Shown: positions 1,593-34,675 of the stretch, in pieces
How positions within the stretch are numbered: the stretch's first letter is position 1
Layout: every line of letters starts with the position of its first letter
DNA from: Chloroflexota bacterium
GTDB taxonomy: Bacteria > Chloroflexota > Dehalococcoidia > UBA2247 > RBG-13-53-26
DNA length: 35,682 nucleotides
Assembly (NCBI GenBank): GCA_003551705.1
Contig: PUNJ01000098.1
Location: 1-35,682 of the forward strand
Reading direction: 5' to 3'
Translations under genes and position numbers: made by a program
The notes under the pieces: model-generated
Database searches by the model: none
Seen by the model: the letters and a program-made list of their open reading frames with translations, nothing else
Told to the model about the DNA's origin: nothing

Positions 1593-4500
1593 GTGGAACT
1601 GAGTAGGAGAAGTTTTCTCAAGCTCACAGGTGCGGGCGCCGGAACGGCTCTGCTTGTTTCCCTCAGCAAGGGCACCCCGGCGTTTGCCGCCAAGAGCTAC
1701 CCTCTCAAGAAAGTAGCTCAGGAAAAGACCACCATCTGCTGCTACTGCTCCCTTGGCTGCGGCGCCATCGTCAGAATCTACGAAGACGGCAGTCTGCAGG
1801 TACACGGAGACCCTGACCATCCCATCAATGAGGGCACTTTGTGTCCCAAGGGCCTGGCCCTGGCACAGATCAGCCAGGTCGATGGCGAACCCAACGTGCC
1901 CTACAGGTTGAGCAAACCGTTGTACAGGGCTCCGGGAGCCACGCAATGGGAAGAGAAATCATGGGACTGGATGCTAACGGAGATTGCCAAGAGGGCAAAG
2001 AAGACCAGGGATGAGTCTTTCGAGACCGTAGTCGGCGGTAAGACCGTCAACCGTACCGAGGCCATTGCCCACATGGGCGGCGGCGAACTCGATAACGAGG
2101 AATGCTACGCCCTGGCCAAGTTCAATCGTGCCTTCGGCGTGGTGTACCTGGAACACTGCGCCCGGTTGTGACACTCCTCGACGGTAGCGGCTCTGGGAGA
2201 GTCGTTCGGTAGGGGAGCCATGACCAACCACTATATCGATATCCGAAATGCAGACCAGATACTGATAATCGGATCCAACGCAGCGGAAAATCATCCCGTA
2301 TCCTTTAGATACGTGACCCAGGCGCAGGAACAGGGTGCCACGCTGATACACGTGGACCCGCGTTTCAACCGCACCTCCGCCAAGGCCGACATCTTCGTAC
2401 AGATGAGATCGGGGACAGACATAGCCTTCATGGGCGGCATGATTTTGCACATCCTGGAGGATATGAGGAAGAACCCTCAGAACTACAACATCGAATACCT
2501 GGTGCAGTACACAAATGCCGCCTACATCGTTAACGGTGCCGATGTGCCCGGCGAAGATGGCCTGTTCAGTGGCTGGGACCCGAACGCGGGCAGCTACGAC
2601 AGGACGAGTTGGAGATATTCAGACATGGGCACCCCCGGGACGGAGCCCAGGCTCTTGTCTCCCTTCTGGTCCGGCTGGGCCAAACGGAACAGCCCCTTCG
2701 CCGAGGAGGCCTGGGAAGAACTGGATGACCATTGTGTTCTGCGCCTCATGTGGGAGCACTACAAGCGCTACGACAAGGAGACGGTGTCCCGGATCACCGG
2801 CGTCTCCGTTGCCCAGTTGGAGCGGGTTTACGCCGAGTACGCCAAGTCCGGCGCCGTAGGCAAGGCCGGGACCATCATGTACTCCATGGGCACCACCCAA
2901 CATACCTACGGTAGCCAGAACGTCCGCATATATGCCATCGTGCAGTTGCTGCTGGCCAATATCGGCGTGGCAGGCGGCGGGGTAAACGCCCTGCGGGGAA
3001 CATCGAACGTCCAGGGAGCCTGCGACAACGGGCTGCTGTTCCACATCATGCCTGGGTACATTGGAGTCCCCAGAGACGTTGATGACGATCTGGATGCCTA
3101 CCTGACCCGGATATCGCCGGCGACCATCAACCCTGCTGCAGGTCTCCCGACGGACCACTCCTTCAACTGGTGGAGCTTCAATGACAATATGCGCAGGTAT
3201 GTGGTAAGCCAGCTCAAGGCCTGGTGGCCCGAACAAGACCCCAACGTCAGCTTCCAGTACCTGCCCAAGGCCAAAGCCGGCGTGGATTACTCGCATATAC
3301 CTATTATCGAGGAAATCAATGCGGGCAAAATCAAGGGACTCTGGCTATTTGGGCAGAACCCCGTGGTCGGAGGGCCCAGTGTCAACTTTGCCCGCCAGGC
3401 CATGGCCAAGCTGGACTGGATGCTGTTCGTGGACATCTGGATGAACGAGACCGGCGAATTCTGGAAGAGGCCGGGCGTCGATCCCACCACAATCAATACC
3501 GAGGTCTTCCTCCTGCCGGCTGCAGCCTCCTATGAGAAGGAAGGCAGCATCACCAACAGCGGCCGCTGGGCTCAGTGGCGCTACAAGTCCGTCGAACCGC
3601 CCGGGGAACCCGACAAGCGCGGCAGATCGGACCTGCGCATTGTTACCGAGTTGCTGGCCAAGCTGAAGGAACTCTATGAGGCAGATGCGGATGCCCCCAA
3701 CAGGGATGCCATCCTGAACCTGGACTGGGATTTCACGCCTCCCGGCGAGGAGGTACCGAATTGGACCTACCCGTCTGCGGATGCCGTTGCCCGAGAGATC
3801 GCCGGATGGGCCCTGGAGGACTACACGGCTGTCTTTGCCGGCACAACGCGCGACTACAAGAAGGGCGAAAGCATCGACACCTTCTTCCATCTGGACGACC
3901 AGGGCAGGACCGCCAGCGGAGAGTGGCTCTTCTGCGGTTCCTACACGACGGCAGAGGGTAACAAGCTGAAGAAGCGCATTAACGTCGACGAATCAGGAGT
4001 GGGCCTGTACTCAGACTGGTCCTGGTGCTGGCCGGTAAACCGCAGGATAATCTACAATCGTGCGGCTGTTGATCTTGACGGCGTGCCCTGGGACAAGAGA
4101 CATCCGGTTGTCGCCTGGAAGGACGGCGCCTGGGTTGGCGACGTTATCGACGGTGGAGGCGCTCCCATCAATCTGGCTCCGGCCGGCGCAAAGAGAGTGC
4201 CCTTCATCATGCTGCCGGAGGGCGTGGGCAGGCTCTGGGGCTACGGACTGGCGGACGGCCCGGTACCCGAAATGTACGAGCCCTGGGAGAGTCCCATCGA
4301 CAACATAATGTCCAAACAGCAATTCAACCCAGTAGCATATATAACTCCCGAGGAAAACAATCCGCGCGGCACCGTCGACAAGTATCCCTACGTTGCCACA
4401 ACATACCGCTGCACGGAACACTGGCAGACCGGGACCATGACACGCAGCCTGCCCTGGCTGAATGAACTCATGCCCGAGATGTACGTGGAAATCGGAGACG

Positions 4501-4772
4501 ACCTAGCTGGTGAGCTGGGCATCGCCCCTGGTGACAAGGTGAAAGTAGAGTCGGCCCGAGGCGAGATCGCGGCGGTGGCCGTGGTCACCAAACGCCTGCG
4601 CAGGCTGGTCATCGACCGAAAACCGGTCCATACCGTGGGCATCCTCTGGCAATGGGGATACACCGGACGGAACAAGGGAGACAGTGGTAACCTGCTGACC
4701 CCGCATGTCGGCGACGCCAACACCACCATACCGGAATCCAAGACGTTCCTGTGCAACGTGAGGAGGGCATAA
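1593..4772 (+). CDS. fdhA: Formate dehydrogenase catalytic subunit, selenocysteine-containing, Tat-exported
   Basis: This is a molybdenum/tungsten bis-pterin enzyme that oxidises formate to CO2. The GTG at 1593 is preferred over the ATG at 1587 because AAGGAGG (1579-1585) leaves seven bases to the GTG but only one to the ATG. The N-terminus carries a twin-arginine signal (SRRSFLKLTGAG), so the subunit probably acts outside the membrane. A [4Fe-4S] motif follows at C49, C52, C56 and C84 (LCPKG). At codon 193 the frame meets TGA (2169-2171) inside ARL-TGA-HSSTVAAL, where FdnG-type enzymes have selenocysteine followed by His. After it the same frame continues with GRGAMTNHYID and the rest of the molybdopterin and C-terminal pterin-binding domains. 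The total is 1059 residues, normal for FdnG-like subunits. It overlaps nothing and is one base from fdhB. Automatic callers will split it into two genes. Confidence 0.9.
2169..2205 (+). promoter_or_regulatory. UGA selenocysteine codon with candidate bacterial SECIS hairpin
   Basis: The TGA at 2169-2171 is immediately followed by a possible stem. ACTC (2173-2176) pairs with GAGT (2199-2202). Across a one-base bulge, CTC (2177-2179) pairs with GGG (2195-2197), including one wobble pair. A G-rich apical loop lies between. Bacterial SECIS elements sit directly 3' of the UGA, so position and size fit. The fold was done by eye. The stronger evidence is the protein homology that continues on both sides of the codon. 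Confidence 0.6.
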
Positions 4773-4773
4773 G

Positions 4774-5568
4774 ATGGGTAAAGGAGTGCTTGTTGATCTC
4801 ACCAAGTGCATTGGATGCCGGGCATGTCAGGTCGCTTGCAAGCAGTGGAACGAGTTGCCCGTAGAGGACACAAAGGTCCAAGGGGACACCATTGCCAATC
4901 CGCCTGGACTGTCAGGTAAGACCTACACCACCCTGGCATTCAAGGAAGTAGAGCATGACGGCCAGTTTCACTGGGTCTTCGCCAAGAACCAGTGCATGCA
5001 CTGCCAGTATGCCGGCTGCAAGACGGCATGCCTGGTAGGCGCCTTTGACAAGACCGAGTTCGGCGCCATTGTCTATGAAAAGAACAAGTGCATAGGCTGC
5101 CGTTACTGCCAGATGGCCTGCCCCTTCGGCGTACCCGCCTATGAATGGTGGAGCCGCACACCCTGGATCCAGAAGTGCACGTTCTGTGCGGACCTGCAGA
5201 GCAATGGTCTCACACCGGCCTGCATAAGCACCTGTCCCACGGATGCCCTCCTCTTCGGTGAAAGAGATGACATGATAAAGGAGGGCAAGCAGAGAATAGC
5301 TGCAAACCCCGATAAGTACGTGAACCATATCTATGGCGAAAAAGAGGTGGGTGGTACAGCATGGATGTACCTTTCAGCCGTACCCTTTGAAGAGGTAGGC
5401 TTCTACCCGATGCGGGAAGAGCCCGTTACACATAATGTGGACAATGCCATGTTCGCGGTACCCTTCGGACTCGCTGTTGTCGCCACCGCAATGACCGGCT
5501 GCTACTTCATATTCAAGAGGCGCCGGAAGCTGGCCCAAGCCAAGTCACGCAGTGGGGAGGGTAAATAA
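4774..5568 (+). CDS. fdhB: Formate dehydrogenase iron-sulfur subunit with C-terminal membrane anchor
   Basis: This 264-residue electron-transfer subunit carries four [4Fe-4S] cysteine clusters in order: CIGCRACQVAC, CMHCQYAGCKTAC, CIGCRYCQMAC and CTFC...CISTC. They would pass electrons from FdhA to the membrane subunit. Near the C-terminus (about residues 229-250) there is one hydrophobic helix followed by KRRRK, as in FdnH/FdoH-type subunits that are anchored in the membrane. There is no Tat signal of its own, so it likely travels with FdhA. The gene begins one base after the fdhA stop and its TAA overlaps the ATG of the next gene, indicating translational coupling. Confidence 0.92.
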   Translation: MGKGVLVDLTKCIGCRACQVACKQWNELPVEDTKVQGDTIANPPGLSGKTYTTLAFKEVEHDGQFHWVFAKNQCMHCQYAGCKTACLVGAFDKTEFGAIVYEKNKCIGCRYCQMACPFGVPAYEWWSRTPWIQKCTFCADLQSNGLTPACISTCPTDALLFGERDDMIKEGKQRIAANPDKYVNHIYGEKEVGGTAWMYLSAVPFEEVGFYPMREEPVTHNVDNAMFAVPFGLAVVATAMTGCYFIFKRRRKLAQAKSRSGEGK

Positions 5569-6764
5569 TGCAGAATCAAGAAGCTCAAAAGCGTTTCCCC
5601 TGGGGTAGCCTGGTCCTGACTGCTGTGGCGGTGCTTGGCCTTGTTGCCATTGTATACCGCTTCCTTTACGGCCTTGGGGCCAGCACCAATCTGAGTGATG
5701 GGCGGGCCTGGGGCATCTGGATCAGCTTCGACCTCTACATTGGAGTTGCGCTGGCTGCCGGCGGTTTCACGCTGGCCGCAGCCGTCTACATCTTCGCCAG
5801 GGAGAAATACCATGCGGTAATCAGACCCGCCATTCTGACCGCCTTCATCGGCTATACGCTGGTGATCCTGGCGTTGCTGGTCGACCTCGGACAACCGTGG
5901 TTCATCTGGAAATTCATCTTGCACCCGAATATCCATTCACCTCTGGCTGAAGTCGGCCTGTGCGTCATGCTCTATACCATCGTGCTGGCCTTGGAATTCA
6001 GCCCGGTAGTTTTCGAGCGGCTTAACTGGCGAGTGCCCATGAAGTGGATCCGGACCATCCAGATCCCCCTGATCGTGGCCGGTATCACACTTTCCACCCT
6101 GCACCAGTCATCTCTCGGTGGAATGGCTCTGATTTTCTCCGAGACACTGGATATGCTGTGGTACTCCCCGATACTACCACTCCTGTTCCTGATCTCGGCG
6201 ATCGCTGTCGGTCCGGCCATGGTGATAGTCGAGGGATCGCTCACCAGCAGGGCCTTTGGCCACCAACTGGGCAGAGATGTCCTGTCCGGCTTGGGCAAAG
6301 TTATTCCCGTAATCCTGGGCATTTACCTTGCCTTTAAGATCGGCGACCTGGTTGTTACGAGGCAGTTGGGCCTTATCTTCTCAACGTCGTCGTACACAAT
6401 ACTGTGGTGGGTGGAGGTCCTCTTCGGAGTCGTACTACCCATGATACTGCTGTCGCGGCCCAGCGTCAGAGAGCATGCCTGGAAACTGTTCGGCGCAGCC
6501 GGTCTGGTGGTACTCGGCGTGATGCTCAACCGCTTCACCATAAGCTGGTTCGCCCTTGAAGCGCGGCCGGCAGTGGGCTATTTCCCCCATTGGATGGAAT
6601 TCGCTGTATCGGCTGGCCTGGTAGCATGGGCTGTTGCCATAGTCATGGTCTGCAACAAGGTGCTTGTAATGCATGAACATGCAGAACCTGAACATGCAGA
6701 AGAACCAGAGTTGGAGGGCAAGCCTGGGATCATGGTCGAACCCGGTGCCGCCCCCGGCAACTGA
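5568..6764 (+). CDS. NrfD/PsrC-family integral membrane subunit of formate dehydrogenase
   Basis: This is a 398-residue, very hydrophobic protein with roughly ten predicted membrane helices across residues 15-375 and a charged, Glu/His-rich tail. The early WGIWISFDLYIGVALAAGGF segment is typical of NrfD/PsrC proteins, the quinone-interacting anchors of many iron-sulfur molybdoenzymes. It replaces the di-haem cytochrome b anchor (FdnI) of enterobacterial enzymes; no haem-ligand pattern was evident. The ATG overlaps the fdhB stop by one base (TAATG). By family knowledge the complex would couple formate oxidation to a quinone-type carrier or another membrane partner. The partner is not encoded nearby. 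Confidence 0.88.
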   Translation: MQNQEAQKRFPWGSLVLTAVAVLGLVAIVYRFLYGLGASTNLSDGRAWGIWISFDLYIGVALAAGGFTLAAAVYIFAREKYHAVIRPAILTAFIGYTLVILALLVDLGQPWFIWKFILHPNIHSPLAEVGLCVMLYTIVLALEFSPVVFERLNWRVPMKWIRTIQIPLIVAGITLSTLHQSSLGGMALIFSETLDMLWYSPILPLLFLISAIAVGPAMVIVEGSLTSRAFGHQLGRDVLSGLGKVIPVILGIYLAFKIGDLVVTRQLGLIFSTSSYTILWWVEVLFGVVLPMILLSRPSVREHAWKLFGAAGLVVLGVMLNRFTISWFALEARPAVGYFPHWMEFAVSAGLVAWAVAIVMVCNKVLVMHEHAEPEHAEEPELEGKPGIMVEPGAAPGN

Positions 6765-6859: not shown

Positions 6860-8809
6860 CTACAAGATTACCTCTCTCATTTGCTGCAAAGCTCGGCGTA
6901 TTTCGTCAACCGACCCTTCTTCCTCGATGGTAGATATGTCACCCAGGCTACTGTTAGTCAACATCGCCTTGATCACCCTACGCATGATCTTGCCACTACG
7001 CGTCTTGGGCATCATGTTCACAAAGACAATGTCTTTAACTACGACTATGGGTCCCATATCCTTCCTCACATGTCGCACCAACTCCTCTTTCAGAGACTCG
7101 CTTGCTTGATATCCTTGTGAGAGCACGACCAGAGCACTGGCCACCTCGCCTCTCAATTGATCAGGGACCCCGGTTACGGCAGCTTCTATCACCGCCGGAT
7201 GGGCCACCAGGGAATTCTCGATTTCGATGGTGCCTATCCGGTGTGAAGCTATCTTGATCACCTCATCAGCTCTGCCCGCAAACCACACATAGCCGTCCTC
7301 ATCCATATGCGCAGCATCGCCGGCATAGTACTTGCCCATAGTTCCAGGCTTCGCTTCCCAGTACTCACGCGTGTACCTGTCAGGTTCCCCCCACAGCGCC
7401 GGGGTCAGACCGGGAAAGGGTTCCGTCAACACCAGAACTCCCTTCGTGTTTGCCGGGAGCTTCTCACCATCTTTCTCGTTCACTATTTCGGCGCCTATGC
7501 CCGGAACCGGGAACCCTGCCGAACCCGGCTTTATCGGTGCAAGGCCCAGCCCGTACGGATTGGCTATGATAGGGCCTGATGTTTCTGTCTGCCACATATT
7601 ATCGATTACCGGTATTCTTCCCTTGAGTACCTGGTTCTGCAACCAGTCCCAGGCTTCAGGATTGAGGACTTCACCTGCCACTACGACCCGTTCCAGGCTG
7701 CTCAGGTCACGTCTTTCGGGTTGCTCCACACCGTACCTCATGAGTGAACGCACACCGGTTGGAGATGTGAACATTCCTGTAACATGATTGCGCTCTATTG
7801 CAGCCCACCACATATCCTTCTGAGGATAGTCGGGAGTGCCCTCGTAGAGTAACGAGGTGCAACCGGTCAATAGAGGACCATATATGCAATAGCTATGACC
7901 AACTATCCAGCCAATGTCCGAAGTGGCAAACCATATGTCATTCGGCTTCAGACCGTACACCCACTTGCCCATGCTATAACAATAGACCTGGTATCCACCA
8001 TGGTTTTGAACGGTGATCTTCGGCTTGGCGGTAGTCCCTGAAGTAGGCAGCAGGAACAGGGGCTGATTCGCTTCCAATTCCACAAAATTATCGTCGCAGC
8101 CCCTCCCCTTCTCCAGGAATTCATCCCAGTCAATGTCCCGCCCCTTCCTCATTGGAGATTGAACTCCCGCCCCCCGGTCCAATACGATGACGTTCCTTAC
8201 TTGCTCAGAAGAATCCAGTCTCTCAATAGCCTCGTCCATCATTTCTTTGAGCAGGACGGGCCTGTTTCGCCGCATGTTCCTGGCCTGAGTGATCACAAAC
8301 CTGGAACCGCTCAGAGCAAGCCTGTCTGCGATGGCGCCCGGCGAAAACCCGGCAAAGATAACCATGTGGATTGCCCCTATGCGAGCGCAGGCCAGCATAC
8401 ATGCAGCGGCTTCGATACTCATGGGCATGTATATGGCGACCCTGTCACCTTGGCGAACTCCCGTGCCCCTCAATGCAGCCGCGTACTTCTTGACCAGTTC
8501 CAGTAATTCCAAGTAGGTTATCGTGCTTCTTTCACCGGTGTCCCCAGCCTCAAAGATGAAGGCAGCCTTATTGCCATGCCCGGCTTGTATCTTCTGCTCC
8601 AGGCAGTTATAACTCACGTTTGTCAGGCCGTTGACATACCATTTGAAGCTGGGGTAGTCCCGGACAAAGACGTCTTTCCATTTCCTGAACCAGTGTATAT
8701 CAGGACTGGCATCAAGTGCCGCCTTTTCCCAGAAACCCCTTTGGTCATCCTGGGCTTCCCTATAGAACGCCATTAGCTCAGGTGACAGACTATTGGTTTT
8801 GTTATTCAT
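6860..8809 (-). CDS. acs: Acetyl-CoA synthetase (AMP-forming)
   Basis: This 649-residue member of the ANL adenylating superfamily activates acetate (or another short acyl acid) with ATP and CoA to acyl-CoA. The ATP-binding loop PTSGTTAKPK, the WQTETSGP motif and the C-terminal GKIMRR are all visible. K607 of the last is the lysine that acetylation regulates in the family. The Trp before QTET, which keeps the acyl pocket small, is retained, favouring acetate or propionate. The start is the ATG at 8809. The frame stays open upstream to 9067, but that part has no homologous look. The nearest good Shine-Dalgarno (AGGAGGAAGG) is about 15 bases upstream, unusually far, so the start is somewhat uncertain. 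It is convergent with the fdh operon. Confidence 0.9.
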   Translation of the reverse strand: MNNKTNSLSPELMAFYREAQDDQRGFWEKAALDASPDIHWFRKWKDVFVRDYPSFKWYVNGLTNVSYNCLEQKIQAGHGNKAAFIFEAGDTGERSTITYLELLELVKKYAAALRGTGVRQGDRVAIYMPMSIEAAACMLACARIGAIHMVIFAGFSPGAIADRLALSGSRFVITQARNMRRNRPVLLKEMMDEAIERLDSSEQVRNVIVLDRGAGVQSPMRKGRDIDWDEFLEKGRGCDDNFVELEANQPLFLLPTSGTTAKPKITVQNHGGYQVYCYSMGKWVYGLKPNDIWFATSDIGWIVGHSYCIYGPLLTGCTSLLYEGTPDYPQKDMWWAAIERNHVTGMFTSPTGVRSLMRYGVEQPERRDLSSLERVVVAGEVLNPEAWDWLQNQVLKGRIPVIDNMWQTETSGPIIANPYGLGLAPIKPGSAGFPVPGIGAEIVNEKDGEKLPANTKGVLVLTEPFPGLTPALWGEPDRYTREYWEAKPGTMGKYYAGDAAHMDEDGYVWFAGRADEVIKIASHRIGTIEIENSLVAHPAVIEAAVTGVPDQLRGEVASALVVLSQGYQASESLKEELVRHVRKDMGPIVVVKDIVFVNMMPKTRSGKIMRRVIKAMLTNSSLGDISTIEEEGSVDEIRRALQQMREVIL

Positions 8810-9118
8810 CTTCGTTCTAACCTTCCTCCTGGCGGCAGGGGTGATCAGGTCAAGCCAAGGGGCATACCTATAAGTATAGGCCCCTCTGTACGGCAGCAGA
8901 CTACATGCAAACCTGACTATCAGGTACACGTGCTCCGGAAGTCCAGCTGCCACTCCCTTATAAAAAATTATCAACAGCCTCTGTAGCGGCCAGCTTCCGT
9001 CTAAATGCTTATGCAGGTAGGCAAATCTACCAACCTGGCCCGTCTGTTTCCGTAGCATTTCTGGCATGTGCCAGCTTGAATTTCACGGCCTCGCCTGACT
9101 TTCCTGCGCCGGGAACCA
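8810..9118. other. Intergenic region between kinase and acs, with a leader hairpin
   Basis: No independent gene is supported. A stem-loop at 8859-8884 (GGGGC pairing GCCCC, then ATAC pairing GTAT across a two-base bulge) would lie in the acs mRNA leader, about 50 bases before the start. It has no T-tract, so it may be a leader structure rather than a terminator. The open acs frame across this region appears fortuitous. Confidence 0.4.
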
Positions 9119-11125
9119 TCACAATGAGCAGCGTAGCGGTAATTCAACACTTATCGTCGTGCCCTTTCCGGGGGCGGCACTGATACTTGTTGTGGCACCC
9201 ATGAGCCGGGCACGTTCCTGCATGCCGACCAGTCCCAGTTTCCCCAACCTCGTCAGGTCCCCAACAGAAGACGGCAATTCAAAACCCCTGCCATTGTCGC
9301 TGATCGTGATTCTTACACTAGCCGGTTCAAACTGCACCAAGACCTCAGCCCTGGTGGCTCCGGAATGTCGACAAACATTATGCAGGGCTTCCTGCGCGAT
9401 GCGAAATAGCATGAGTTCCGCATCCTTAGGCAAACGGTGTTCTATCCCCTCCATCAGGGTCTCTATTGGTATCGTTGAATACCCGGACAGGTCTGAGGCC
9501 AGCCACTGAATGGCAGGCAACAGGCCGAGACGATCGAGAGTAGGCGGGCGCAGCCCCTGGCTTAACCTCCTGACGCCCTGCATGATGGCGTTTGTATCCT
9601 GCCAGAGGTCCTCCAGCGCCTCTTTCCTCTCAGCCCTCAAGTCCTCACAAGATGCCAGGTTATCCAGTTGGCGCGAAAGTACGACGAGGGCCTGAATGGT
9701 GTCGTCATGGAGTTCATGAGCAATCCGGTTTCGTTCCTCTTCCTGGGCCTTGGTCACTTCTCCCAGATAGAAATTAAGGTTTTCCCGCATGCGGATCTCT
9801 TCGGTCACATCCCTGGATATATTCTGGAAGCCAATGACCGTACCATCCTGGTACACTGGACTGGTGGTCAGTTTGAGTGTAGCTTCGGAGGCATCCTTTC
9901 TGATAATCTTCTGTTCGTAGGGCTGATCTATCGGCTCATTAATTAGCAGTTTCTGCCGCATCTGCATGGCCAGCGCCAAACCTTCTCTAGGCAGGAACTG
10001 CTTTACGTTGATCCCTATTAATTCGGACATGCCATAGCCCGTTTGTGTCTCGCAGGCTTTGTTGGCAACGGTGATATTGCCCTGAAGATCGTGGACCCAG
10101 ATGGCATCGTTGGCATTTTCAAACAGACCCCTGTAATTCCTTTCCGATACGGCCAGGCGTTCGAGAGCCTGTCTTTCGTTCTCATACAGCCGGGCATTCT
10201 CTATGGCAATGCCCACCTGATTGGCAATGCCTGTGAGCAATTCCACCTCTTCATTGGTGAAGTGGCGGCAGTGGTTCATCATGATGCAAAGTATGCCCAT
10301 AACATTACCCTTTGACTTCATGGGTACACTTAGCAGAGAACCCACATCAAAGTCCTCCGCAGTATGTAACGCATTCGATGTGCTGGTGGAAGCGTTTTCA
10401 ACGTATAAAGGCTCTCCGGTTTGGGCTACCCGGCCGTTGAATCTGGTCCCCATCTGGATGACCTTGGCCCTTTCAGCAAAAGTGTTCGGGACGCCCCGAT
10501 GAGCCGCCAAGACCAGGTTTGTTCCCGCCTGGGGGACCAGATAAACCAGGGCAGCCTTGACCTCCATGACTTCCATAACGTTCTCGGTGGCCTTGTCAAG
10601 TACCTCTTCCAGTTGCAAGGATTGCGAGAGTATCGTCGAAGTCCTATTCAACGCGGCCAATCGCTTCTCGTTTTCCTTGATAAGGTCTATCTGAGAGCGA
10701 AGCGTGCTCTCGGCCGTTTCCAGTCTTGCGCGCCGCTCACGTTCTTTCTTCAGAGAATCGAAGGAAATAGCCACAATATTGCCCATAATAAATACGGCAA
10801 CCGCCTCGAAAAAGGCTTCCATGGGGGCGTGGGACATGAATAGTGCCCGCGGCAGCATGCAGGCAAGAGCCAGCAGGGATACGGCAAAAGCCGCGTGGCG
10901 GCCGAAAAGGAATACCGACCATATGATAGGCACGAGATAACCGATTCGCTCGAAGGTATGGCGGCTTACACCAAACTCCGAAAGCCAGTCGGAGAGAAAG
11001 GCGGGATGTGCAAATTGCTCTCGATAATGGGGAAAGGTTATGAGAACCACCAGAACAAACAAGAGCCAGAAACCGGGGTGTCTTAGGGTCCTCGTGAGCC
11101 AGCCACGACTAGTTATTGCCAACAT
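9119..11125 (-). CDS. Membrane sensor histidine kinase, GAF-PAS-HisKA_3-HATPase
   Basis: This 668-residue kinase is of the NarX/DegS type. The N-terminus has several hydrophobic segments (about residues 15-120), then a coiled linker, a GAF domain (about 165-315), a PAS domain (about 333-445) with NANDAIWVHD, and a HisKA_3 dimerisation helix with ELHDDTIQ. The predicted phosphorylated residue is H473. The ATPase domain follows, with DNGRGFEL and GLVGMQERARLMGA. The ligand of the GAF and PAS domains cannot be read from sequence. It lies 26 bases downstream of its response regulator on the same strand, a classical pair. The ATG at 11125 lacks a strong ribosome binding site, consistent with coupling to the upstream gene. 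Confidence 0.9.
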   Translation of the reverse strand: MLAITSRGWLTRTLRHPGFWLLFVLVVLITFPHYREQFAHPAFLSDWLSEFGVSRHTFERIGYLVPIIWSVFLFGRHAAFAVSLLALACMLPRALFMSHAPMEAFFEAVAVFIMGNIVAISFDSLKKERERRARLETAESTLRSQIDLIKENEKRLAALNRTSTILSQSLQLEEVLDKATENVMEVMEVKAALVYLVPQAGTNLVLAAHRGVPNTFAERAKVIQMGTRFNGRVAQTGEPLYVENASTSTSNALHTAEDFDVGSLLSVPMKSKGNVMGILCIMMNHCRHFTNEEVELLTGIANQVGIAIENARLYENERQALERLAVSERNYRGLFENANDAIWVHDLQGNITVANKACETQTGYGMSELIGINVKQFLPREGLALAMQMRQKLLINEPIDQPYEQKIIRKDASEATLKLTTSPVYQDGTVIGFQNISRDVTEEIRMRENLNFYLGEVTKAQEEERNRIAHELHDDTIQALVVLSRQLDNLASCEDLRAERKEALEDLWQDTNAIMQGVRRLSQGLRPPTLDRLGLLPAIQWLASDLSGYSTIPIETLMEGIEHRLPKDAELMLFRIAQEALHNVCRHSGATRAEVLVQFEPASVRITISDNGRGFELPSSVGDLTRLGKLGLVGMQERARLMGATTSISAAPGKGTTISVELPLRCSL

Positions 11126-11151
11126 TGCAGTTACTTTGCTTCGCAGGCCAT

Positions 11152-11817
11152 CTAGGGAATGTCATCCAGAGTGATCCATCCCTCCTTGAGCCCGCGTACA
11201 ACAGCCTCGGTCCTTGAGACCACCTGTAGCTTATTGAAGATGTGCGTAAGATGTCCTTGCACGGTCCTTATGCTCAGGCAAAGCTCCTCGGCTATATCAC
11301 GGTTGCTCAACCCGCGGGTGGCCAGCTTCAGAATCTCCCGCTCCCGCTGGCTCAACGTCTCCAAGCTTCCCTGTTTCTTCGGCTTCTGTGACGTCGATAC
11401 GAAGCGGTCCAGGACCTTTCGAGCAATGGACGGATGCAATACCGATTCCCCGGCGTAAACGGCTTTCACAGCTTCCACCAATTCACGTCCCCGCACGTCT
11501 TTCAGCAAATAACCAGCGGCTCCAGCCTCCAGCAGGTTGAAAACAAATTCGTCGTCGTCGTAGGCGCTCAGGATCAGGACAGTGATCTCAGGACAGTTGT
11601 TCTTGATCTGTTTTGTAGTCTCCACGCCGTCGAGCAGAGGCATTGAGATGTCTATTATGGCTACGTCCGGCTTGAGCCGGCTCGCCATCTCTATGGCTTC
11701 GAGCCCGTTTGTAGCATCGGCGATCACGACCAGACCGGGTTCTTGCTCAAGGATACGACGCGTACCCTCACGAACAACGGCGTGGTCATCCGCAATCATA
11801 ACCTTGATGTAGCTCAT
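11152..11817 (-). CDS. NarL/FixJ-family response regulator
   Basis: This is a 221-residue protein. The receiver domain has the acidic pair DD at 10-11, phospho-acceptor D56 (IIDISMP), and the conserved Thr/Ser and Lys (LLKD) further on. The C-terminal LuxR-type helix-turn-helix is clear (LSQREREILKLATRGLSNRD, then SIRTVQGHLTHIF). It should bind DNA as a dimer when phosphorylated by the adjacent kinase. The start at 11817 is preferred: MSYIKVMIADDH is a standard N-terminus and AAGGGA lies eight bases upstream. The frame is open to 11874 without further support. Targets are unknown. Confidence 0.93.
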   Translation of the reverse strand: MSYIKVMIADDHAVVREGTRRILEQEPGLVVIADATNGLEAIEMASRLKPDVAIIDISMPLLDGVETTKQIKNNCPEITVLILSAYDDDEFVFNLLEAGAAGYLLKDVRGRELVEAVKAVYAGESVLHPSIARKVLDRFVSTSQKPKKQGSLETLSQREREILKLATRGLSNRDIAEELCLSIRTVQGHLTHIFNKLQVVSRTEAVVRGLKEGWITLDDIP

Positions 11818-12075
11818 TCCTGAGTTCCCTTGGAGAATCCTATGGTAACACAGGTTGAGCCCAAACACAAACAAGTCCTATGTTGACCCTAGTCTTGTTG
11901 GATATCCGGGAACGTCAGGCGGATGCCGGTTATGCTATCAAGCCCCTTTGTTCCAGCAATCACCTTGTACACGGAGATTCTCGCAACAAGAGCGTATTCA
12001 ACTACCTTGGTCTGCTACTTGCCGTATGGGTTCGGCCGTTACGCAGCCAAGGTTGCCAGCCAAGTCCTCTTATTC

Positions 12076-19787: not shown

Positions 19788-20165
19788 GACAACCGAGCAG
19801 GCCTGTAAGCCGGGTTTTGTTGTCTACCTTGCGGCAGACCGGTGGCCATCTATCTAGCCCCGACGTTACCGGCGGGGTCGAGCAACCAACCCAGGGACAT
19901 CGGTCGGGCGTCCTTACGTCCCCCTATTTGGTCTTGCTCCGGATGGGGTTTACCCAGCCGGCTGGTCACCCAGCCGCTGGTGAGCTCTTACCTCACCTTT
20001 TCACCCTTAGTCCGCCGTGGCGGACCGGTTTGGTTTCTGTGGCACTTTCCGTAGGGTCACCCCTCCTGGGAGTTACCCAGCATCCTGCCCGAAGGAGCCC
20101 GGACTTTCCTCCCTCTTGGAGAACAGGTCTCCAAGACGGCGACCACCCGGCCTACTCGGCTGACC
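19788..20165 (-). ncRNA. rnpB: RNase P RNA (bacterial type A)
   Basis: Read on the minus strand, this is the catalytic RNA that matures tRNA 5' ends. The hallmark GAGGGAGGAAAGTCCGGGC near the 5' end, the central ACAGAAACCAAACCGG region and the final AAACCCGGCTTACAGGCC are all present. The two ends pair as helix P1 (CCGAGTAGGCC at 20159-20149 with GGCCTGCTCGG at 19803-19793). The 5' end is set by the promoter at 20172-20199, whose expected start point falls at about 20164-20165. It lies about 150 bases downstream of the ribonuclease HI gene on the same strand. Exact ends are approximate. Confidence 0.93.
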
Positions 20166-24910: not shown

Positions 24911-25519
24911 ATGCTTCATTTACCCAGCAATATCATACCCATGGTAATAGAGACAAGCGCGAGAGGTGAACGGGCTTATGACATCTATTCTCTACTCTTG
25001 AGGGAGCGCATTATATTCCTGGGCACACCCATTAATGACCAGGTAGCCAATATAATCATCGCCCAGCTACTGTACCTGGAGAGGGAGGACGCCGACAGGG
25101 ATATCAGCCTATACATCAACAGCCCCGGCGGTGTAGTTAGCTCAGGGCTGGCCATCTATGATACCATCCAGCTGATCAGGCCTGATGTATCCACCATCTG
25201 CCTGGGTCTCGCGGCCAGTATGGGAACACTGCTACTGACTGCCGGGAGCAAGAACAAGCGGTATTCTTTACCCAACGCAACCATACACATGCACCAGGCT
25301 GTGGGCGGAGCTCAGGGTCAGGCCACCGATATTGAGATCGCCGCACGAGAGATCATGCGCCTACAAGACATCATAAGGAACATTCTGGCCAAGCACACCG
25401 GCCAATCGGTAGAGAAGATAGCCCATGACAGCGACCGGGACTTCTATCTTAATCCGGAACAGGCCATTGAATATGGGCTTATCGACGAGATACTGGCCAA
25501 ACCGGAACAGGAGATTTAG
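24911..25519 (+). CDS. clpP: ClpP serine protease subunit, copy 1
   Basis: This is the 202-residue proteolytic subunit of Clp proteases; fourteen copies form a barrel fed by a ClpX or ClpC unfoldase. The catalytic triad is intact: S103 (AASMGTLL), H128 (IHMHQAVGG) and D177 ([11 protein letters not shown]). The start at 24911 follows AAGAGGAGG. There is no obvious long propeptide. It is followed by a second copy with about 85% identity. No clpX lies next to them, unlike the frequent tig-clpP-clpX order. Confidence 0.95.
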
Positions 25520-25575
25520 TACGACAACTGTGGTGCCCAGGAAACGGGTGCGTTGCCGTGAGAAAGGAGGCTGAC

Positions 25576-26175
25576 ATGCTACATGGCCCCAGCAACATAA
25601 TACCCATGGTCATAGAGACCAGCGCCAGGGGTGAGCGTGCCTATGATATCTACTCCTTATTGCTCCGCGAGCGTATCATTTTCCTGGGCACACCAATCAA
25701 TGATCAGGTAGCCAACCTGATCATTGCCCAACTCCTTTACCTGGACAGAGAGGACCCAGACAAAGACATCAACCTCTATATCAACTGCCCCGGTGGGGTA
25801 GTCAGTGCGGGACTGGCACTGTACGATACTATCCAGATCATCAAGCCAGAAGTGGCCACCATCTGCGTAGGCATGGCGGCCAGCATGGGTACCGTGCTTC
25901 TTGCCTCAGGAGCCAATGGTAAACGGTCCTCCCTCCCCAATGCCACCATACACATGCATCAGGCTGTGGGCGGAGCCCAGGGACAGGCCGCGGATATAGA
26001 GATCGCTGCCAGGGAAATCATGCGTCTGCAGGATATCCTCAGAAATGTCCTGGCCAAACATACCGGCCAGTCCGTTGAAAAGATCGCCCACGACACCGAC
26101 CGTGATTTCTACTTGAATCCTGAGCAGGCAGTTGATTACGGTATTATTGACGAAATTCTTACAAAACCAGAGTAG
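25576..26175 (+). CDS. clpP: ClpP serine protease subunit, copy 2
   Basis: This is a 199-residue paralogue of the preceding gene, aligned without gaps over 199 residues with about 30 differences by my count. The triad S103, H128 and D177 is kept. Changes cluster around 61-118, including the handle region and SPGG to CPGG at residue 71. The start at 25576 is preferred because AAAGGAGG lies five bases upstream; the frame opens earlier at a GTG (25558) that precedes this ribosome binding site. Two ClpP types could form mixed tetradecamers, as known for ClpP1/ClpP2 in mycobacteria; whether these do is inference. Confidence 0.95.
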
Positions 26176-34496: not shown

Positions 34497-34584
<88 letters not shown>

Positions 34585-34591
34585 GGCCGGC

Positions 34592-34675
34592 GGAGAGGGT
34601 GGGATTCGAACCCACGCTCGCAGAAGCGAGACCGCTTTTCGAGAGCGGCACCATAAACCACTCGGACACCTCTCC
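34592..34675 (-). tRNA. tRNA-Ser (anticodon CGA)
   Basis: This is a class II tRNA on the minus strand with the same acceptor as its neighbour. The anticodon stem CCGCT/AGCGG encloses loop CTCGAAA, giving anticodon CGA. The variable arm is long and the T-arm reads GGGTTCGAATCCC. CCA is not encoded. It lies seven bases upstream of the GGA gene and is probably co-transcribed with it. Confidence 0.95.

Follow-up and report, generated by a model that had tools for sequence, protein, structure and literature searches.

Formate dehydrogenases that carry selenocysteine (Sec) have been described from several relatives of the bacterium studied here. For D. alkenigignens, a 2016 report described Sec genes together with a TGA in both a formate dehydrogenase gene and selD (PMC4918011), and all Dehalogenimonas analysed since encode a Sec-FdnG together with selCDAB, with a dual role proposed for their FDH-N (PMC13390414). 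A Sec-containing FdnG-type subunit has also been predicted for the deep-sea Chloroflexi single cell Dsc4 (PMC5736913). The first-pass annotation had regarded a Sec version in this lineage as informative; with these three reports already published and such genes widespread in the class, that novelty is weakened. The OHR complex of Dehalococcoides belongs to type II CISM, an assembly of an alpha subunit, an NrfC-type ferredoxin and an NrfD-type membrane protein (PMC10772276). In D. vulgaris FdhA, Sec192, His193 and Arg441 have been shown around the metal as active-site residues (PMC11323313).

The operon and its catalytic subunit

Our window, the whole stretch of DNA analysed, comprises 35,682 nucleotides of contig PUNJ01000098.1. 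Near its start lie three adjacent genes, which we read as an operon for a Tat-exported, membrane-attached Sec formate dehydrogenase that would oxidise formate, its UGA being decoded by the genome's own Sec machinery; from the sequence we put the probability of this reading at about 0.93. The features are:

1593–4772, + strand: catalytic (alpha) subunit of an FdnG-type formate dehydrogenase; 1059 residues, Sec at residue 193
2157–2159, + strand: TGC, encoding Cys189, which precedes Sec by four residues; by alignment and tree a trait of the clade
2169–2171, + strand: TGA within the frame, taken from translation and alignments to encode selenocysteine at residue 193
4774–5568, + strand: beta subunit, a HybA/HmcB/FdnH-like ferredoxin of 264 aa with 16 Cys
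5568–6764, + strand: gamma subunit, an NrfD/HybB/HmcC-type integral membrane protein with at least 9 hydrophobic helices

The alpha frame is interrupted solely by the TGA and ends at a TAA codon. It opens with GTG at 1593, with AGGAGG 7 bases upstream, and an alternative ATG lies in the same frame at 1587. The subunit scores 1108.8 bits against TIGR01553 (formate dehydrogenase-N alpha; cut-off 814.2) over residues 3–1057, and profile matches cover molybdopterin, [4Fe-4S] and Tat-like regions. Cysteines 49–84 form an N-terminal [4Fe-4S] motif, preceded at the very N-terminus by the Tat signal SRRSFLK, which scores 22.3 against the Tat Pfam model, just under the cut-off of 22.7. Binding of Mo/W-bis-MGD and of a [4Fe-4S] cluster is assigned from similarity to the family and to solved structures of homologues, which span the full length of the subunit. 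The residues flanking the TGA read EHCARL-U-HSSTVAAL...GRGAMTNHYID, with HCARL-U-HSSTVAALGESFGR spanning Sec193. In the alignment, the TGA falls on Sec192 of D. vulgaris FdhA, known from solved structures, and on the Sec encoded by E. coli fdnG and fdhF, while His194 and Arg468 correspond to D. vulgaris His193 and Arg441. The metal-ligand Sec, the next His, the active-site Arg, the [4Fe-4S] motif and the Tat signal of an FDH-N alpha subunit are thus all present. The first-pass annotation, which had called the gene an FdnG-type catalytic subunit, placed Sec at the FdnG/FdhA position and proposed the alignment with FdnG/FdhH, is borne out on each point.

The 16 Cys of the beta subunit would suffice for four [4Fe-4S] clusters; the protein has one C-terminal hydrophobic helix and is nearest to HmcB, HybA and FdnH. 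The gamma subunit matches NrfD (PF03916, 92 bits) and is nearest to HybB/HmcC. This alpha-beta-gamma order is kept in L118, L119, L023, L024, L140 and L142. An FdnGHI complex was considered and rejected, the third gene being NrfD/HybB-like rather than a cytochrome b FdnI. With the three subunits adjacent and this gamma subunit in place of a cytochrome b, the predicted complex is a type II CISM, built like the OmeA/OmeB module but with its active site intact.

In such a complex, SelB with Sec-tRNA(Sec) would read the UGA, helped by a hairpin that follows it, and FdhD would sulfurate the bis-MGD cofactor. Formate would then be oxidised outside the cytoplasmic membrane, with electrons passing to the ferredoxin subunit, on to the NrfD-type subunit and from there to quinone or a partner complex. 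The strongest competing account accepts Sec insertion and instead makes the complex an electron relay within a larger respiratory complex, or a CO2 reductase, rather than a plain formate:quinone oxidoreductase. Its appeal lies in the NrfD-type subunit, which marks a type II CISM like the OHR complex, in the relay role proposed for Dehalogenimonas FDH-N (PMC13390414) and Dehalococcoides OmeA, and in the acetyl-CoA synthetase gene that adjoins the operon. We consider it unlikely, as our search of the window identified neither a hydrogenase nor a reductive dehalogenase gene and, unlike in OmeA, Sec and the active-site residues are intact.

Other genes of the window were also noted. The acetate-CoA ligase-like (acetyl-CoA synthetase) gene at 6860–9067 is convergent with the formate dehydrogenase operon, and a GAF/PAS sensor histidine kinase with a NarL-type response regulator (9119–11874) lies near it as a possible regulator. 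Further along are a class A RNase P RNA (19790–20158), two tandem clpP genes after trigger factor (24911–26175) and two tandem tRNA-Ser genes (GGA, CGA; 34497–34675).

Decoding of the TGA

The genome to which the window belongs (G000) measures 2.81 Mb in 212 contigs and is 94.8% complete with 3.5% contamination; the assembly being so divided, the window and the sel genes lie on different contigs. Absence of selA, selB or tRNA-Sec had been named beforehand as the result that would count against Sec, and a search of the genome found all three, and selD as well, here listed by contig with other relevant genes:

C30, 10316–10413: tRNA-Sec (TCA), from the tRNA model and ARAGORN
C30, 2171–4018: selB, from a profile search of the genome
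C30, 4201–5550: selA, 556 bits
C189: selD, 384 bits, with one in-frame TGA in the motif GAGUACK
C207: fdhD, from a family search of the genome
C134, 8385–9074 (L161/L162 pair): FdhH-like formate dehydrogenase with one TGA, DHCARL-U-HAPSVAGL
C148, 33859–34563 (L161/L162 pair): FdhH-like formate dehydrogenase with one TGA, DHCARL-U-HAPSVAGL

The tRNA-Sec gene (L104) adjoins apparent Tat translocase genes (region 10316–11778, TatC-like 10442–11203), and C30 also carries two Cys-type formate dehydrogenase-like genes beside selA and selB.

Were the TGA a true stop, created by a nonsense mutation or by an error of assembly, we would be dealing with a pseudogene or with two pieces, translation restarting at ATG 2220, which does open an 850-aa downstream frame. 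Several observations make this very improbable. The coding signal downstream of the TGA is undiminished (log-odds per codon 0.19 before and 0.18 after, the other two frames being negative), and a stop-free run of 866 random codons at this composition has a chance of ~6e-16. The same codon is TGA in independent relatives, down to ~45% identity. A protein begun at 2220 would, moreover, have no Tat signal, [4Fe-4S] site or metal ligand, and the GGTAGGGGAGCC that precedes this ATG resembles a ribosome-binding site only weakly. A variant genetic code that assigns every UGA to an amino acid (Trp or Gly) and leaves SECIS unneeded would account for the open frame and nothing more, and is hardly credible when TGA stops end 7 of 18 family-assigned window genes, in-frame TGAs were met only where formate dehydrogenases and SelD have their Sec, and tRNA-Sec (TCA anticodon), SelA and SelB are present.

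Directly 3' of the TGA, where the first-pass annotation had pointed to a hairpin within 2169–2210, we found one that extends slightly further:

2174–2217, + strand: SECIS-like hairpin, with outer helix 2174–2179/2212–2217, inner helix 2186–2194/2198–2206 and loop GGG at 2195–2197

The loop opens with G, and a G near the loop start is a trait of bacterial SECIS elements. Its energy was reached by 1.5% of 1000 synonymous recodings (p = 0.015) and its stability by 3 of 203 stretches in a gene-wide scan; the recoding test gave p ≤ 0.10 in 15 of 19 clade members. Across 30 related sequences, 91.7% of cells were paired, versus 40–57% with the partner slid, and the covariation score exceeded all 500 shuffles, with changes on both sides in only three of the 15 hairpin pairs. 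Over the whole set of homologues, minimum free energy gave no separation of Sec from Cys/Ser forms (Mann-Whitney p = 0.14). E. coli fdhF, a proven Sec case, is also weak in hairpin energy, which makes energy alone a poor test. Since energy does not separate the homologues and two-sided changes are few, we take the putative SECIS as supporting, not decisive, for the Sec reading. Taken together, the TGA site, the active-site residues, the Sec machinery, the TGA of relatives and the stability of the hairpin make selenocysteine at residue 193 secure at the level of sequence.

Contig C189 (L103) holds, at 342–436, a 95-base tRNA with a tRNA-Sec-like shape, anticodon GCA and discriminator T (T73), whose 8-bp acceptor stem is the same as that of the genome's tRNA-Sec. 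Its match to the tRNA-Sec model was considered as a duplicate tRNA-Sec and rejected, as ARAGORN reads a tRNA-Cys(GCA); a canonical tRNA-Cys(GCA) is also present in the genome (L007). Its neighbours are a yedF-like gene, selD and a truncated selB (484–744), which is ~87 codons long and shares 85% identity with the intact SelB. The same tRNA occurs in three other Dehalococcoidia genomes (L169, L170 and L171; 89%, 83% and 82% identical), and a yedF-like gene, so named from its translation, lies near it in both homologue loci whose surroundings were read. The predicted tRNA resembles selC* tRNA-Cys, for which a 2020 review names Firmicutes, Thermodesulfobacteria, Nitrospirae and Proteobacteria as sources and does not name Chloroflexota (PMC7609411). 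The described selC* tRNA-Cys has an 8/4 form with a bulged A, whereas the C189 tRNA reads as 8/5 in the ARAGORN drawing.

Relatives across Dehalococcoidia and the preceding cysteine

Relatives were compared in two sets, 80 loci from genome contigs and 294 genomes of the class Dehalococcoidia, and in both the codon at the Sec site is mostly TGA. They were found in 52 of the 294 genomes, most full-length ones with exactly one TGA. The relationship to Dehalococcoidia suggested by the first-pass annotation is upheld. Within the class, selA was detected in 197 of 294 genomes and tRNA-Sec in 203. Genomes with a TGA homologue carried selA in 37 of 40 cases versus 3 of 11 with a non-TGA homologue (p = 3.5e-5, ignoring relatedness among genomes; non-TGA means a covered Sec site, and lists were read by hand). 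Either selA or tRNA-Sec was present in 39 of the 40 TGA genomes, the exception being a genome that is 72% complete. This tracking of selA by TGA genes suggests that the codon and the machinery share one fate, whether retention or loss. The search of class genomes did not find selA in the three Dehalococcoides-like genomes.

In the tree, Sec enzymes occupy most branches, Ser and Gly forms make up one derived cluster and Cys forms are scattered, a distribution that supports descent of OmeA from what was probably a working selenoenzyme. A complex such as ours appears to have given rise to the OmeA/OmeB module through loss of catalytic activity. The Ser that the first-pass annotation cited for the Dehalococcoides homologue was indeed seen, as RLSTASS in L147–L149, loci that we assign to Dehalococcoides, like genus g70 to Dehalogenimonas, from the residue and the literature. 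Two Dehalogenimonas-like loci (L158 and L159) hold second FdnG paralogues in which Ser or Gly takes the place of Sec or Cys and the His that follows is missing; these group with the Dehalococcoides Ser type.

A Cys four residues before Sec (position −4) occurs in 19 of 122 homologues, all in one 20-member Dehalococcoidia-related branch (support 100) whose remaining member has Gln. On a nearby branch, three members of the class combine the −4 Cys with a catalytic-site Cys. Other FdnG-type sequences have Gln (as in E. coli FdnG), His, Glu or Ala there, and Cys recurs in E. coli FdhF and in this genome's two FdhH-like enzymes. The first-pass description of this extra Cys as unusual therefore stands against FdnG but not as a peculiarity of the gene: uniqueness was rejected, the residue being clade-wide and shared with FdhH-type enzymes, which makes it a lineage trait and not one new to formate dehydrogenases overall.

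Comparison with known systems

The closest solved structures are those of D. vulgaris FdhAB (PDB 6SDR, 8CM4 and others), a Sec enzyme that aligns over the full-length alpha subunit at ~954 bits. FdhAB is an alpha-beta enzyme without an NrfD-type subunit, and its −4 residue is Gln where Cys is found here. Its allosteric disulfide, C845–C872, is replaced by Ser900 and Val928, and most relatives compared also lack equivalents of these cysteines. One could speculate that the −4 Cys forms a reversible redox pair with Sec (a selenenylsulfide), or otherwise protects displaced Sec, in place of a C845–C872-like regulatory or protective role; we regard this as a long shot.

E. coli FdnGHI has an alpha subunit of the same family (TIGR01553), likewise with Sec at this site, and differs in its cytochrome b FdnI, where the window encodes an NrfD/HybB-like gamma subunit, and in the −4 Gln of FdnG. 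Dehalogenimonas FdnG is like the window gene in belonging to the same class and in having Sec, a SECIS region and an alpha-beta-gamma arrangement with an NrfD-type gamma; it is ~50% identical, has Gln at −4 and sits on a separate tree branch. The gene described here is thus real but largely ordinary, similar Sec genes being known in relatives.

D. mccartyi OmeA/OmeB pairs a related catalytic subunit with an NrfD-type membrane protein in a type II CISM. OmeA is recognised by its Ser (RLSTASS) and by its Hup hydrogenase and RdhA partners, and lacks the next-position His; the window enzyme has Sec and His194, and no Hup or RdhA genes were identified in the window. The class is best known for a relative that has Ser and is inactive on formate; to it our analysis contributes a secure Sec formate dehydrogenase, along with its machinery and its position in the tree.
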